Shown one piece after another: positions 7,856 through 15,023 of a stretch of DNA of 34,461 nucleotides. A program made the position numbers and the translations under genes. The notes beneath the pieces were generated by a model. The model had not been told where the DNA came from. It searched no databases and saw nothing but the letters and a program-made list of their open reading frames with translations. The stretch lies in contig CALZJE010000036.1 in the NCBI GenBank assembly GCA_945787715.1, forward strand, positions 1 to 34,461, given 5' to 3'. The stretch comes from an uncultured Ectothiorhodospiraceae bacterium (GTDB taxonomy: Bacteria > Pseudomonadota > Gammaproteobacteria > S012-40). Each line of letters starts with the position of its first letter. The first letter of the stretch is position 1.

Positions 7856-9177
7856 TTTTTATCTGTCTCGCGTAGTTTATTATTCCATTTCTGCGAATTT
7901 TCATTCAACTTTTGCTCATCAAGTGTTGTAAGTTCTCTATTTTTAAGTAGGCATTTCCCATCTATCCACGTGTGAGTGACTTGAGAGCGTGTAGCTGAAT
8001 AGACGATTTGCGAAATAGGATTGTAGAGAGGTTGTGTCTCTAACTGTGAGAGGTCAATTGCAGCAATATCAGCAGCTTTTCCTTTTACTAGTGATCCTGT
8101 GATATCATCAATTTCTAACGCTTTTGCGCCATTGATGGTTGCCATTTCCAGCGCTATGTGAGCGGGCACCGCTGTTGGATTATCTGAAACCGCTTTTGCC
8201 AGTAATGCTGCACTACGCATCTCCCCTAGCATGTCCAAGTCATTATTACTTGCGGCGCCATCTGTTCCAATGCATACATTAATACCCGCTTCTTGTAAGG
8301 TGTGAACCGGGCAAAAGCCACTTGCGAGTTTCATGTTTGATTCCGCGCAATGCACAACGTTTATCTGTTTTTCTGCACATAGCTGAATTTCTTCTTCTGT
8401 TAATTGTGTCATATGTACTGCGACTAAACGTGAAGAGGCAATACCAAGTTCGGATAAGCGAATTAAAGGACTTACTCCTTTTTGCTCAATCGCCTGCTCA
8501 ACTTCAAACTTTGTTTCGTGTACATGCATATGAATGGGAATGTTGAGCTCATCCGCGTAAGCAGCGATTTTTTTTAACGGCTCATCAGAAACAGTATATG
8601 GCGCGTGCGGGGCGAGTGTCGTGGTGATTCTATCTACTGATTTTAATTGTTTATGAATAGTTAATGCCTTATCCAAATATTCATCTGCATTAGCAGCCCA
8701 AACAGTCGGGAAGTCGATGACAATTAGTCCGATGCTCGCTCGATATCCTGCTTCATCAACAGCTTTTGCAGCCTGGTCTGGGAAAAAGTACATATCGTTA
8801 AAACAGGTAACACCGTTTCGCAAAGACTCAGCAATCGCTAGTTGAGTCCCTTCATGCACAAAATCCTCATTTACCCATTTTGCTTCAGCCGGCCATATAT
8901 GATTTTGTAACCAATCCATCAAGGTCAGGTCGTCAGCATATCCACGAAGTAGATTCATGCTTGCATGAGTATGTGCATTGATTAGCCCTGGGATTAATGC
9001 GTGGTTAGGTAAATCAAATGTCTCTGTTGCTGAATATTGTTGACCAGCTTGCTCATTTGGTATTATGTCAATGATTTTATTTTGATCGATAATCACGCTA
9101 TGATTTTCAAAGCAAGTCGCTGTTGGTTCAACAGGTATAACCCATCCGGCATTAATAATCGAATCTACTCTTTGCAT
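7852..9177 (-). CDS. mtaD: 5'-methylthioadenosine/S-adenosylhomocysteine deaminase (TRZ/ATZ amidohydrolase)
   Basis: This 441-residue amidohydrolase has the metal-binding NAHTHASMNLLRGYADDL (His69, His71), HMHVHE (216-221), VVHCAESNMKLASGFCPV and GTDGAASNNDLDML (Asp306). These follow the MtaD/SAH deaminase pattern. The enzyme deaminates methylthioadenosine to methylthioinosine, which in Pseudomonas is split by MtnP to give methylthioribose-1-phosphate, the substrate of MtnA. mtnA lies close by on the other strand, which supports this reading over a generic chlorohydrolase. It is the first gene of the minus-strand operon. AAGG about 12 bases before the ATG is a plausible ribosome binding site. 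Confidence 0.9.
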   Translation of the reverse strand: MQRVDSIINAGWVIPVEPTATCFENHSVIIDQNKIIDIIPNEQAGQQYSATETFDLPNHALIPGLINAHTHASMNLLRGYADDLTLMDWLQNHIWPAEAKWVNEDFVHEGTQLAIAESLRNGVTCFNDMYFFPDQAAKAVDEAGYRASIGLIVIDFPTVWAANADEYLDKALTIHKQLKSVDRITTTLAPHAPYTVSDEPLKKIAAYADELNIPIHMHVHETKFEVEQAIEQKGVSPLIRLSELGIASSRLVAVHMTQLTEEEIQLCAEKQINVVHCAESNMKLASGFCPVHTLQEAGINVCIGTDGAASNNDLDMLGEMRSAALLAKAVSDNPTAVPAHIALEMATINGAKALEIDDITGSLVKGKAADIAAIDLSQLETQPLYNPISQIVYSATRSQVTHTWIDGKCLLKNRELTTLDEQKLNENSQKWNNKLRETDKK

Positions 9178-9541
9178 GTGTAGCGTACACCTTAACTCGT
9201 GAAATTATGATTGGAAGGCCTATTTTGACACGATATATCTGATTTCTCTATGGCAATTGTTATTATTGGGTTAGCTGTTGGTATGTTGCTACAGTGAAGG
9301 AGAAAGAGTGAAGGAGAAAGCAGGGAATCAATAGGAGGATTTTTGCTGCCACTACTCATGTTGATTTTATAGCAGCAAACGCGATTCGCTCCAAATACGC
9401 TGAGTAGGGTTGTTTCTAGGAGATAGAACTATTAAAACGGTGAATAAGCCCCTTATTTACTATTGATTAATGCTCAAATAGCGTTTATTGGTAGAATGTT
9501 TGCTTTGTTGTTTTTATAATTACTATAAAAAAGGAAATTTT
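9178..9541. other. 364-bp divergent intergenic region between mtaD and the roadblock gene
   Basis: This stretch must contain the mtaD promoter (minus) and the promoter of the roadblock gene (plus). A TATAAT at 9515-9520 lies 22 bases before the roadblock ATG, but no good -35 is at the right distance. A 15-codon ATG frame at 9250-9297 would encode a wholly hydrophobic peptide (MAIVIIGLAVGMLLQ). It lacks a ribosome binding site and I do not call it a gene. A 14-bp tandem duplication is listed separately. Confidence 0.5.
9293..9320 (+). repeat. 14-bp perfect tandem duplication
   Basis: AGTGAAGGAGAAAG occurs twice in direct succession (9293-9306 and 9307-9320) in the gap upstream of the roadblock gene. 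The purine-rich unit resembles a ribosome binding site but no gene starts after it. Recent slippage is the likely origin. Confidence 0.75.
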
Positions 9542-9901
9542 ATGGGCAGTAATGGTATTGATCGAATTTTAAATGAATTCATGAAAGTTAAGGGTGTTAC
9601 TGCTGTCGCTTTGGTAGGACGAGATGGAATTGTTATTGAAAGTGTATCAAATACAAATCTTGATATTGACGCATTAGGTGCGATGGTGGCGACAGCTGTT
9701 GGTACTGCTGAAACATTGGGCTCTGAGTTTGGTTTTGGTGGCCTTGAGTCAAAATTGAACGAATATGCCAACGGAAAAATTCTAATGGCAGCTGCTATTG
9801 ATGAGGTTTTGGCCATTTTTACAGATACCACATCCGTTATTGGTAGTGTTCGTTACGCTGTTAAGAAAAATATGCCAGATGTAATTAATGCTTTGCAATA
9901 A
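9542..9901 (+). CDS. Roadblock/LC7-domain protein (MglB-like)
   Basis: This 119-residue protein is a single roadblock/LC7 domain. A first helix (IDRILNEFMKVKG) leads into beta strands VTAVALVGRDGIVIES, a long central helix (DIDALGAMVATAVGTAETLGSEF), then LESKLNEYANGKILMAAAIDEVLAIFTD and a last helix VRYAVKKNMPDVINAL. Roadblock domains dimerise and act as regulators of small Ras-like GTPases (MglB for MglA, for example), but no GTPase gene is in the window. I chose the ATG at 9542 because AAAAAGGAAA ends about 5 bases before it. The frame extends upstream only through an implausible Cys/Tyr-rich stretch. It is followed by a doubtful small ORF and a protoglobin-domain gene on the same strand, which suggests a signalling cassette. 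Confidence 0.88.
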   Translation: MGSNGIDRILNEFMKVKGVTAVALVGRDGIVIESVSNTNLDIDALGAMVATAVGTAETLGSEFGFGGLESKLNEYANGKILMAAAIDEVLAIFTDTTSVIGSVRYAVKKNMPDVINALQ

Positions 9902-9929
9902 CTTCGCCGAGGATTTTAACAGCTGTATA

Positions 9930-10100
9930 ATGAAGTCTAATATTTTGAATGATCTTTTGCATGACTTTACTGAGCGAGATGGTGTTGTTTCTGTTGCTAT
10001 TTTAATGTTGCTTACTGTAGATGATACTTCTGCAAAAAAACTATGCAGCAATGTTAAAAATGATTTATTTCGACTGAGGCTCTGTTTAACTACCGACTAA
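9930..10100 (+). CDS. Doubtful small ORF, possibly a truncated roadblock-like remnant
   Basis: This 56-codon frame lies between the roadblock and protoglobin genes. Its start, ILNDLLHDFTERDGVVSVAIL, resembles the beginning of the roadblock protein upstream (ILNEFMKVKGVTAVALV), but the rest of that domain is missing and the C terminus matches nothing I know. No good ribosome binding site precedes the ATG; GAGG at 9909 is 17 bases away. It may be a decayed second copy, a real small protein, or chance. Frame-restored homologues in relatives would settle this. Confidence 0.3.
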   Translation: MKSNILNDLLHDFTERDGVVSVAILMLLTVDDTSAKKLCSNVKNDLFRLRLCLTTD

Positions 10101-10174
10101 ATTGAACTTCGATTTAATAAATAAGAATACTAATAAGGATGTCATCTTTATATTTGAAATTTGAGGAAAGGTCT

Positions 10175-10762
10175 ATGACAGTAACGCAATCATTTTATAA
10201 TATAATTTCAAGGCTCATTTCTTTTGAAGAGTCAGATTGGCAAATTTTGTCCAAGGAAGCTGATGTAATTAAAACTTGGGCGGCGGATTTCATTCATGTT
10301 TTTTACGATACCTTATATAGTATTGAAGAGACTACGGCTGTTTTTCATGATGGTGAACGAGCGAAACTGGAAGCAACACTTGAACAATGGATTGACGATA
10401 TATTAAGTGGTGATCAGGGTGAAAAATTCTGGAATCACCAACGATATATTGCATTGCTACATATTAAGCGTGGTACTAAAAATTTGTATATGCTTGGTAT
10501 GATGAATAGGTTGCAACAAATGTTTTTGTTAAAAAGTATGGAGAGTTTTGAGCAGGATAAAGCTATTCAAGTATATTCTGCATTCTTGAGGCTTTCAGGA
10601 ATGGTCGCTGGCTTAATTGCTGAGTGTTACGATGAGGTGACCGAAACTAGTACACACGCAGGATTATCTCGAGTAGGTTTGAATGAAGCTTTGGTTTCTC
10701 GTATTAAAGCTATACAGATTGATAAAATGCTGAAAGAGGCTGAAGAGATCACAGCTGCGTAA
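10175..10762 (+). CDS. Stand-alone protoglobin / globin-coupled-sensor domain protein
   Basis: This 195-residue all-helical protein fits the sensor globin found at the N terminus of globin-coupled sensors. FYDTLYSIEETTAVF (43-57), a helix with LEATLEQWIDDILSG (65-79), then RYIALLHIKRGTKNLYMLGMMNRLQ match that pattern. His96 in ALLHIKRG sits where the proximal heme ligand falls, before the G-x-x-x-x-Y segment. Unlike HemAT or GGDEF-linked sensors there is no output domain, only about 50 extra C-terminal residues (ending EEITAA). The ATG at 10175 follows GAGGAAAGG with good spacing. An in-frame ATG at 10139 would add 12 residues but has its purine run too close. Likely function: heme-based O2/NO sensing, passed to a partner protein. 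Confidence 0.75.
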   Translation: MTVTQSFYNIISRLISFEESDWQILSKEADVIKTWAADFIHVFYDTLYSIEETTAVFHDGERAKLEATLEQWIDDILSGDQGEKFWNHQRYIALLHIKRGTKNLYMLGMMNRLQQMFLLKSMESFEQDKAIQVYSAFLRLSGMVAGLIAECYDEVTETSTHAGLSRVGLNEALVSRIKAIQIDKMLKEAEEITAA

Positions 10763-11184
10763 TTATTACGAGTGATCCGCTGGATGATAATTCTACGTTC
10801 ACACTAAATCTAGAGATAGATATTTTGTTGATTAAGCATGTTGAAACGATTGAAAAAAAAACAAAACCAAAATGCAAAGTTTAATTCTGCATATAGAGAT
10901 GAAAGGATTGCGCTTCGAGACTAATTTCATGGGAGTTGAATTAGGATACATAAAGTTAAATCGACTTCATTGACGATTGGCGAGCTAGATTTGCAAATCA
11001 GATTTTGCGGTCAGTTTGAATTCCTGTATTTCGATCAATAAACGATCAAAACATATCTTCTTGTTCAGCTCATGAATCACTGCTCTAATAAGATTTCTCC
11101 TGGTTAAAATAAAGTTTTTTGTGATTGTCCATTCGAAATTCGCTATCATATGGCCTCTTTATTTATTGGAGTTCGAGAAGAGGG
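10763..11184. other. 422-bp intergenic region before mtnA
   Basis: No supported gene. A 28-codon frame at 10838-10924 would give a strongly basic peptide (MLKRLKKKQNQN...) but has no clear ribosome binding site. GATTTGCAAATC at 10988-10999 is a perfect 12-bp palindrome and could be an operator. The mtnA promoter candidate is at 11061-11089. No terminator is recognisable after the protoglobin gene. Confidence 0.5.
11061..11089 (+). promoter_or_regulatory. Candidate sigma70 promoter for mtnA
   Basis: TTGTTC (11061-11066), a 17-base spacer, then TCTAAT (11084-11089). The -10 matches 5 of 6 consensus bases and the -35 only 3 of 6. It would give a leader of roughly 90 bases before the mtnA ATG at 11185. 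Confidence 0.35.
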
Positions 11185-12231
11185 ATGGCGCAAGACAATT
11201 ACGATAAAATTAGACCTGTATGTTGGAAAAATGATCATTTGGAATTATTGGACCAGAGAATCCTTCCCAAAAAACACGAGTTTATTGTATATAATGATTT
11301 AGTTGATGTAGCGGATGCTATCACTGATATGGTAGTTCGTGGCGCGCCTGCCATTGGGATCACTGCAGCTTATGGCGTAGTGCTAGCAGCAAGAGCTCGT
11401 TATGCCGAGGATGGTGATAACTGGAAGGCTAATATAGAAAAAGACCTGAAATATTTAGCTGACTCTCGTCCAACCGCGGTGAACCTGTTTTGGGCAATTG
11501 ATCAGATGAAACAATCTATCGCCCAGGTTTCAGGCGATCCGGTGCCTGTATTGCTCTCGAAAGCTAATCATATTCTCGAAGAAGATATCGCTGCTAATAA
11601 AGCGATGGGTGCCGCTGGTGCAGCCTTAATATCTGATAAGTGTGCTGTGTTAACACACTGTAATGCTGGGGCGCTGGCAACAGGTGGTTATGGAACAGCG
11701 CTAGGGGTTATTCGAAGTGCTTTCGCTCAGGGAAAAATAGAAAATGTTTATGCTGATGAAACGCGACCTTGGATGCAAGGCTCACGATTGACTGCTTGGG
11801 AATTAGCTCATGATGATATTCCTGTTACTCTGCAGTCTGACGGCGTTGCAGCTTACTTGATGCAACAAGGAAAAATAGAGTGGGTTATTGTTGGCTCAGA
11901 TCGCATTGCAAGCAATGGAGATGTGGCAAATAAAATCGGAACTTATGGTTTAGCTGTTCTTGCTAAATTTCACGGTGTTAAATTTATGGTGGCAGCACCA
12001 ACTTCCACAATAGACATGAATATTAGTCAGGGTTCAGATATACCTATTGAGCAGCGTGGGGAAGATGAAGTGCTTGGTTGTGGTGGAAAAAGAATCGCTG
12101 CTGCCGGCGTGAAAGCTTGGAATCCTGCCTTTGACGTAACTCCTGCTGCGTTGGTTGATGCAATTGTCACCGAGAAAGGTGTTGTGCAGAATCCAACGCC
12201 TAAGAAAATGCAGGAGTTGATGACAAATTAA
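11185..12231 (+). CDS. mtnA: Methylthioribose-1-phosphate isomerase
   Basis: This 348-residue protein of the eIF2B-like isomerase family has MVVRGAPAIGITAAYG near the N terminus, THCNAGALATGGYGTALGV with the catalytic Cys159, DETRPWMQGSRLTAWEL, and GSDRIASNGDVANKIGTY with the catalytic Asp239. It converts methylthioribose-1-phosphate to methylthioribulose-1-phosphate in methionine salvage. I chose the ATG at 11185, preceded by GAGAAGAGGG, over an upstream TTG at 11125 that would add 20 unlikely residues. mtaD, which supplies the pathway upstream, is about 2 kb away on the other strand. gyrA follows after 119 bases. Confidence 0.95.
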   Translation: MAQDNYDKIRPVCWKNDHLELLDQRILPKKHEFIVYNDLVDVADAITDMVVRGAPAIGITAAYGVVLAARARYAEDGDNWKANIEKDLKYLADSRPTAVNLFWAIDQMKQSIAQVSGDPVPVLLSKANHILEEDIAANKAMGAAGAALISDKCAVLTHCNAGALATGGYGTALGVIRSAFAQGKIENVYADETRPWMQGSRLTAWELAHDDIPVTLQSDGVAAYLMQQGKIEWVIVGSDRIASNGDVANKIGTYGLAVLAKFHGVKFMVAAPTSTIDMNISQGSDIPIEQRGEDEVLGCGGKRIAAAGVKAWNPAFDVTPAALVDAIVTEKGVVQNPTPKKMQELMTN

Positions 12232-12350: not shown

Positions 12351-15023
12351 ATGGAAACATTCGCCAAAGAAGTACATTCGATAAATATTGAAGACGAGAT
12401 GCGTCAATCTTACATGGCGTATGCCATGAGCGTTATTGTTGGTCGCGCCTTGCCTGATGTTCGTGATGGGTTGAAACCAGTGCATCGTCGCGTGTTATAC
12501 GCCATGAATGAACTCAGTAATGACTGGAATAAGCCGTATAAAAAATCCGCTCGCGTTGTAGGGGATGTTATCGGTAAATATCACCCTCATGGTGATTCCG
12601 CAGTATATGATGCATTGGTACGAATGGCGCAGCCATTTTCTATGCGTTATATGTTAATCGATGGTCAGGGTAACTTCGGTTCAGTTGATGGTGATTCACC
12701 TGCGGCTATGCGTTACACCGAAGTACGCATGAATAAAATTGCCCATGAACTCTTAGCGGATCTAGAGAAAGAAACCGTCGATTTCATTTCTAACTACGAT
12801 GAATCTGAAACTGAGCCTTCAGTTTTTCCTGCCAAAACACCTAATTTATTGGTCAATGGCTCTTCTGGTATTGCAGTAGGTATCGCGACCAATATTCCTC
12901 CTCATAATATGAGTGAAGTTGTCAGCGGTTGTCTGGCGCTAATAGATAATCCTGATATCGATATTGCTGGGTTGATGGAGCATATTCCTGGTCCTGATTT
13001 TCCAACCGCTGGCATGATCAACGGTGCGAAAGGAATTCACGAAGCTTACCGTACAGGGAAAGGCCGAATTTATATTCGATCCCGTTCGCATATTGAAGAA
13101 GAGAAAAACGGTAAAGAAAAAATTGTTGTTACGGAGCTTCCTTATCAGGTTAATAAGGCGCGTCTTTTAGAGAAAATTGCTGAGCTTGTTAAAGATAAAA
13201 AGTTAGAAGGCATTACTGAGCTACGCGATGAGTCTGACAAAGACGGGATTCGTATGGTTATCGAATTACGTCGTGGTGAATCTTCAGACGTTGTATTGAA
13301 TAACCTTTATCAGCAAACTCAAATGCAAAACGTGTTTGGGATAAATCTGGTTGCGCTGTGTGATGAAGAGCCGAAACTGTTAAATCTAAAACAGATTCTT
13401 GAAGCCTTTGTTCGTCACAGACGTGAGGTTGTTACTCGACGAACATTATTCGATTTGCGTAAAGCGCGTGAACGAGCTCATATTCTGGAAGGCTTGGCAG
13501 TTGCGTTAGCGAATATCGATCCAATTATTGCAACAATTAAAGCATCTCCGACATCTGCTGAAGCGAAAGTTGCCTTATTAGCTCAGGCTTGGGAGCCTGG
13601 TATCGTAACTACGATGCTTGGTAGTGCAGGTGCTGATCTTTCTCGTCCTGATGAGCTAGGTGCGGACTTTGGTATAACAGAACAAGGTTACCGCATGTCT
13701 CCTGTGCAAGCGCAGGCAATTTTAGATATGCGCTTAAATCGCTTAACAGGTTTAGAGAAGGAAAAAATTCATGGAGAATTTAAAGAGCTTCTGATTAAGA
13801 TAGAAGATCTGTTAGAAATTCTGATGAAGCCAGAGCGTTTAATGCAGGTTATCCGTGATGAATTACAAGAAATTAAAGATCAGTATGGTGATGAGCGTCG
13901 AACTGAAATTGTTCACACTCAACAAGATCTGTGTTTGGAGGATTTAATTACTGATGAACCAATGGTTGTTACTTTATCACATGAAGGTTATGTGAAATCG
14001 CAACCATTGACGACTTATGATGCTCAGCGTCGCGGTGGTCGTGGTAAATCTTCTACCAATATGAAAGATGAAGACTTTATCGATAAGCTCTTTATCGCTA
14101 ATGCGCATGATACTATGCTTTGCTTTTCAAGCCGTGGAAAACTCTACTGGCTCAAAGTTTATCAGATTCCTCAATCTTCTCGTGTGGCTCGTGGCAAACC
14201 GATTGTCAATCTTTTGCCGTTGGAAAAAGATGAAAAGATAAACACCATCTTACCGATCCGTGAATATGAAGACGATAAGTTTGTTTTCATGGCCACAACA
14301 AATGGTACGGTGAAGAAAACACCGCTTAAAGAGTTCTCTCGACAAAGGGCTAATGGCATTATTGCTATTGACCTACGTGAAGATAATCATCTAGTCAGTG
14401 CTGATATTACTGATGGAACAAAAGATATTATTTTGTTCTCCAGCTTTGGTAAAGCTGCGCGCTTCAACGAAAGTACAGTTCGCTCAATGGGCCGTACTGC
14501 CGCTGGTGTGCGGGGTATTAGATTAGGCGAAGGTCAAGAAGTCATTGCCTTGATTATCGAAGGCGAGGGTATGGTGCTTACCGCAACCGAAAATGGTTAT
14601 GGTAAACGTACTGATATCGCAGAATATCCATCAAAGGGCCGTGGTGGGCAAGGTGTTATCTCTATTCAAACCAGCGAACGTAATGGTGCGGTGGTTGGTG
14701 CTGTGCTGGTTAAGGAAGAAGATGAAATTATGTTGATTAGCACGCAAGGTACGCTGATTCGTACACGTATTAACGAAATTTCAGTCGTTGGTAGAAATAC
14801 TCAAGGTGTTCGATTGATGAATCTGAGTAATGATGAACAATTGATGAGTATCGACCGAATTTGTGAATTAGATGCTCAAGGCGGTAACGATGGTTCAGGT
14901 GATGATGAAGCAGCAGAATCAGTCGAAAGCAACGAAAGCAACGAAAGCAACGAAAGCAACGAAAGCAACGAAAGCAACGAAAGCAACGAAAGCAACGAAA
15001 GCGGCCCCGATACAGAACAGTAA
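12351..15023 (+). CDS. gyrA: DNA gyrase subunit A
   Basis: This 890-residue protein is the breakage-reunion and DNA-wrapping subunit of gyrase. The catalytic tyrosine is Tyr122 in AAMRYTEVR, in the same numbering as E. coli. The quinolone-resistance region reads [13 protein letters not shown] with Ser83 and Asp87, the quinolone-susceptible residues. The C-terminal beta-pinwheel carries the GyrA box QRRGGRGK (about residue 560), needed for DNA wrapping. After the acidic linker the tail is (ESN)8-ES-GPDTEQ, encoded by a tandem 9-bp repeat; most GyrA tails are acidic but not so regular. The gene is preceded by a possible promoter and followed by serC after 31 bases with no terminator. Confidence 0.98.
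14925..15002 (+). repeat. 9-bp tandem repeat in the gyrA 3' end
   Basis: GAAAGCAAC is repeated eight times without any mismatch (14925-14996), followed by a partial GAAAGC. The unit is in frame (Glu-Ser-Asn), so copy-number change would lengthen or shorten the GyrA tail by three residues without a frameshift. Perfect identity at synonymous sites points to recent slippage. Confidence 0.97.

Follow-up and report, generated by a model that had tools for sequence, protein, structure and literature searches.

A bare protoglobin beside a roadblock/LC7 protein: a candidate heme-sensing module of MglA/MglB-type signalling, found in reduced form in a gammaproteobacterial genome

MglB is the GAP for MglA. 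To our knowledge, few environmental inputs to bacterial Ras-like GTPase modules are known. Among the described systems, Group 3 MglA systems occur in beta- and gammaproteobacteria and are recognised by a DAR sequence in G5, a G4 without lysine, and a neighbouring protein with a receiver-like N-terminus and a winged-helix C-terminus (Wuichet & Sogaard-Andersen 2014, PMC4316618); globins are not mentioned in the main text of that study. In the actinobacterial conservons (CvnA-D), a sensor, an MglB-like roadblock (Robl) protein and the CvnD GTPase are encoded together (PMC4316618). A direct coupling of a heme globin to a Roadblock/LC7 domain has been described for HGbRL of Methylacidiphilum infernorum, a globin-roadblock fusion for which it was suggested that movement caused by ligand binding is passed on to the Robl domain. 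HGbRL was described as confined to a single genus; it shares an operon with a methyltransferase gene, and an MglA-like GTPase gene lies at another site together with a different Robl gene (PMC4476040).

The window, by which we mean the whole 34,461-nucleotide stretch of DNA that was analysed, carries a Robl gene and a protoglobin gene next to each other on the forward strand. An earlier note on this DNA had proposed that they form a two-gene cassette leading from a heme sensor to a GTPase regulator, made of a single-domain Robl protein and a protoglobin devoid of any output module. Its descriptions of the two proteins are borne out. The Robl protein, RoblA (9542-9901, 119 aa), is encoded by a frame running from ATG 9542 to a stop at 9901, with GGA preceding the start. 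It scores 46.5 bits against Robl_LC7 (PF03259; curated cut-off 23, E 3e-12), retains the Robl fold and the DG motif in alignment, and is 50-64% identical to its orthologues in the family; the window's genome has no other Robl match. The protoglobin, PGb (10175-10762, 195 aa), scores 55.2 bits against Protoglobin (PF11563; curated cut-off 25); the genome has three other protoglobin matches. Its reading frame opens at 10139, so that an in-frame extension (10139-10174) precedes the gene as we delimit it. The spacing to a Shine-Dalgarno sequence is poor for ATG 10139. Because ATG 10175 has a good Shine-Dalgarno sequence upstream (GAGGAAAGG), and because most homologues start there or within a residue or so, ATG 10175 is probably the start codon and ATG 10139 is probably not used. 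Comparison with the same-genus genome G001 shows purifying selection on both genes, with pN 0.206 and pS 0.729 for RoblA and pN 0.147 and pS 0.825 for PGb, synonymous sites being near saturation.

PGb consists of a globin and a C-terminal helix only. Its AlphaFold model (pLDDT 86, pTM 0.80) resembles most closely the globin domains of AfGcHK, the T. elongatus globin, GsGCS and HemAT (Foldseek TM 0.82-0.88, normalised to the target), and its best sequence match in the PDB is the T. elongatus globin, Tlr1989, on which we found no paper in the open-access literature. His96, numbered as in the earlier note, aligns with the proximal His of the solved sensor globin 2w31, and none of the 25 PGb sequences compared deviates at His96, Phe43-Tyr44 or Trp72; Gly168 and Leu173 in the C-terminal helix are invariant among a diverse set of 10. 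With a proximal His (H96) and a distal Tyr (Y44) in place, PGb is predicted to bind heme. It thus shares the globin fold, the proximal His and the B10-type Tyr of globin-coupled sensors (AfGcHK, HemAT, BpeGReg, GsGCS), but lacks the output domain that these carry on the same chain; its presumed output is a separate protein, Robl. HGbRL, which likewise couples a heme globin to a Roadblock/LC7 domain, differs in being one fused chain and in having a globin of the flavohemoglobin/Vitreoscilla-type group with swapped sites rather than a protoglobin (PMC4476040).

The two genes are found together far beyond the window. Of 25 related bare PGb genes examined, 22 adjoin a Robl gene, in nine gammaproteobacterial families. 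In the window's family this is so in all seven genomes that carry this PGb. In other families (f10, f37, f64, f66, f75, f77, f84 and f157), drawn from a sample of 369 genomes of the class, it is so for 15 of 18 bare PGb genes. The pairing is therefore not due to chance. The two genes overlap by 4 bp in G012 and G006, and are up to about 0.5 kb apart at loci with a second Robl gene between them. Either gene may come first, and in f75 they lie on opposite strands. The distance matrices of PGb and Robl are strongly correlated over the 22 pairs (Mantel r 0.83, 0 of 5000 permutations), a value to which shared ancestry contributes. Outside the class, a phylum-wide search recovered the pair in four of five genomes of f207, which belongs to a second pseudomonadotal class, and in G642 (f13), and a plasmid search recovered it on Thermus plasmids. 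Bare PGbs with no Robl neighbour include those at L120, L125, L127 and L175 and three tandem PGbs of G662 (L174:6924-9045); in T. brockianus SNM4-1, PGb and a GTPase are kept and no Robl gene is nearby. The search models derive from PGbs with an adjacent Robl gene, and the searches are biased towards such PGbs. A scan of genome contigs with a single PGb protein as query gave no matches, and one with an alignment as query gave eight loci, all Robl-adjacent, which are contigs of genomes already in our set and hence not independent evidence.

The earlier note had also proposed to look for an MglA-like GTPase nearby, and in several distant lineages there is one. In G190:C82, G168, G207 and G095 (loci L122, L123, L124 and L126), an operon encodes a TPR protein, a long protein, an MglA-like GTPase and a protein with a weakly Robl-like C-terminus, followed by Robl and PGb in either order. 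A GTPase is also part of the operon in G642 and in three f207 genomes, at a distance of 0.8-1.3 kb from the pair in the latter, where an ODP-family protein of the beta-lactamase fold is encoded upstream (L177:5458-6207, L178, L179) and extra roadblock-like ORFs lie alongside. On Thermus plasmids the genes overlap or nearly touch: T. oshimai pTHEOS01 encodes, in order, an IclR-C-terminal protein, DUF4388, an ATP/GTP-binding protein, roadblock, protoglobin and EAL; the T. thermophilus plasmid encodes DUF4388, a GTPase, Robl and PGb; and T. brockianus GE-1 carries additional PGb-like genes as well as HD-GYP. EAL is present in two of these three operons. In T. oshimai the GTPase, Robl and PGb genes bear the locus tags THEOS_RS12005, THEOS_RS12010 and THEOS_RS12015. 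Comparison of the T. brockianus plasmids L181 (NZ_CP016313.1, 5376-9707) and L182 (NZ_AP025594.1, 5376-8171) suggests that protoglobin copies recombined, an event that would have deleted the roadblock gene and left the GTPase, one PGb and EAL.

Across genomes, an MglA-type GTPase is present in all 14 sampled gammaproteobacterial genomes outside the window's family that have a bare PGb, compared with 53 of 352 others (Fisher p 1e-11, which is not corrected for phylogeny and, with genomes from nine families, overstates the independent evidence); in some of them (f75, f77) the GTPase lies outside the pair's locus. The GTPases of the operons have an intact P-loop. Like Group 3 MglA proteins, most of these distant relatives have a DAR-type G5 and a lysine-less G4: VDAR occurs with a lysine-less G4 in L122, L124 and L126, and variants of G5 read VDPR in L123 and VDGR in L057. 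The resemblance extends to the MglB-like Robl protein and may extend to the long protein adjoining the relatives' GTPase, whose N-terminus matches Response_reg weakly (E 0.11, under the cut-off). What sets these loci apart from Group 3 systems is the stand-alone protoglobin as a regular member and, in the window's family, the lack of a detectable GTPase. Conservons, too, encode a sensor, Robl and a GTPase together, but their sensor is a histidine kinase and not a globin. The families of the parts and the GTPase-Robl core are already known, the core matching described MglA/MglB systems. No paper on protoglobin-roadblock operons, or naming both, was found in the open-access literature, and the protoglobin as a regular stand-alone third member may be new. 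For the gene family as a whole, the reading as a heme sensor acting on a GTPase regulator is well supported.

The window's own family departs from this pattern. No MglA-like GTPase was detected in any of its 13 genomes (the window's and 12 others) with a model that also recognises the Thermus GTPase (3e-34) and those of f207. In the window's genome, one match to PF00025 exceeds the cut-off; it is weak (3e-6) and falls in an 892-aa frame, which we take from its length to be translation factor IF-2. The pair in the window therefore cannot be called a GTPase-regulator cassette in the strict sense. Of the proposal in the earlier note, the link between the two genes is upheld by their conserved pairing, their co-variation and the conserved heme-pocket signature; no MglA-like GTPase was detected here.

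The two genes, though real and conserved as a pair, are also what is left of something longer. Between them, on the same strand, lies a 56-codon ORF (9930-10100), which the earlier note had overlooked. It has no Pfam match, and aligns to the intact second roadblock gene, RoblB, of G001 (L049:1482-1877) with a z of 6.0 (0 of 1000 shuffles equal; tblastn E 0.001). It keeps the first helix/strand and the last helix in frame, and about 75 core codons are missing. At the same site, G001 and G009 encode a complete second roadblock protein, 131 aa long in G001 and 139 aa in G009. We read the ORF, from its alignment, as a decayed RoblB; possibly the gap is instead an assembly error in this draft genome of 227 contigs. 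A second missing part is an unannotated protein, with helical and alpha/beta parts, which we call the A4 family. It is encoded just upstream of Robl in five genomes of the window's family, at two of these sites with no PGb, and was not found in the window's genome. The window thus holds a reduced version, the smallest, of a longer operon. The predicted order of strands and helices in the C-terminal domain of the A4 family resembles a G domain. We do not claim it as a degenerate GTPase, as the model is poor (pLDDT 44), Foldseek returned nothing meaningful with it, and profile comparison with GTPases gave a probability of 0.1%.

The position of the cassette between mtaD and mtnA, which the earlier note had pointed out, proved to be specific to this lineage. 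In eight genomes of the family both genes were found together; there mtaD and mtnA are divergently oriented and lie about 0.1-0.15 kb apart, with no Robl or PGb match at the locus. Among the genomes compared, only the window's has the cassette there. The segment separating the two genes (9178-11184) is AT-rich, with a G+C content of 33-39% compared with 40-45% around it, and the cassette probably moved in as a lineage-specific insertion. Since it is inserted in a spacer that is short in relatives, its neighbours say nothing about its role, and we reject a link to methylthioadenosine metabolism, mtaD and mtnA being split by the cassette in this genome only. Flanking repeats that might mark a transposition are short and weak, PADLOC gave no matches that would indicate membership in a defence system, and Rfam gave none for RNA elements in 9150-11200. 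The roughly 420 bp between PGb and mtnA (10763-11184) are AT-rich DNA with no recognisable gene.

We propose, with a probability of roughly 60%, that Robl and PGb form a gas- or redox-sensing module of MglA/MglB-type signalling, whose GTPase was lost in the window's family while the pair was kept. The stand-alone heme PGb would be the input and the Robl homodimer the relay; where a GTPase is present, the Robl dimer would act on it differently once the PGb heme had bound O2, NO or CO or changed its redox state. Sensor and relay in these roles are the most economical reading, by analogy with MglB and HGbRL; on this reading PGb and Robl would be in physical contact, and a signal would run from the one to the other. 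In five relatives, the A4-family protein encoded before Robl may have become the new partner of Robl. In the window's genome, where that protein was not found and RoblB is eroded, the remaining pair would have another target, provided that it is still active at all; its function in this organism is putative. We are more tentative, somewhat short of an even chance, about a wider proposal: that PGb recurs in different phyla as a non-covalent heme-sensor subunit of roadblock/MglA-type G-protein signalling, in some cases linked to c-di-GMP enzymes (Thermus) or found with an ODP-family protein (f207), and that the window's lineage discarded the G protein and rewired the pair to a GTPase-free output. 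A conserved heme globin beside a roadblock regulator would give uncharacterised MglA-type systems, among them the compact Thermus operons ending in c-di-GMP enzymes, an input that can be tested directly, be it O2, NO, CO or redox state. The window's family, with a sensor and a regulator and no detectable GTPase, raises the question of whether a roadblock protein needs a G protein to pass on a signal.

The main rival for the window organism is loss of function: with its GTPase, second Robl gene and upstream partner gone, the pair would have no signalling role and be on its way out. The reduction of RoblB to 56 codons and the lack of both GTPase and A4-family protein fit such a relic, as do a negative search for terminators and promoter matches no more frequent than expected by chance. 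RoblA and PGb are nevertheless intact, with their invariant residues kept and pN far below pS, and the cassette survived relocation. We regard this outcome as unlikely. A little less likely still is that PGb is an enzyme or ligand scavenger, serving NO detoxification or O2 buffering, and that Robl is merely co-regulated and receives no direct signal. Redox enzymatic roles are possible for bare globins, PGb has no output domain, and nitrite-reductase and peroxynitrite-isomerization activities are among those reported for the M. acetivorans protoglobin (PMC4020757). Against this, PGb is paired specifically with a switch-regulator fold across phyla, its closest folds are sensor globins, and its neighbours in Thermus and f207 are signalling proteins (DUF4388, GTPase, EAL, HD-GYP) or an ODP-family protein.

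It is improbable, in our view, that the pair in the window still acts on a housekeeping or very divergent GTPase that is not recognisable as MglA-like. The retained Robl fold and DG motif and the draft state of the genome would allow it, but no MglA-type GTPase was detected in the 13 family genomes and the single PF00025 match over the cut-off is the presumed IF-2. That the two genes are adjacent by accident, both having been inserted at once between mtaD and mtnA, could be suggested by a location unique to this genome among those compared; this reading is already refuted by the conservation of the pair in differing neighbourhoods, in nine families of one class, in f13 and f207, and in another phylum.

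Some minor observations concern related loci and the rest of the window. In f75, two proteins with a C-terminal Robl domain are encoded close to the pair (L081:12618-13724, 368 aa; L112:11498-12412, 304 aa); both have a long N-terminal part, of low complexity in L081. At L054:7908-10752 and L055:772-3732, a Robl gene of the same subfamily lies between genes for an A4-family protein and a possible outer-membrane beta-barrel protein, with no protoglobin. One f207 genome (G399) has two tandem copies of the Robl-PGb pair. Finally, the GyrA ORF in the window ends in a run of Ser-Asn-Glu repeats (14900-15020).
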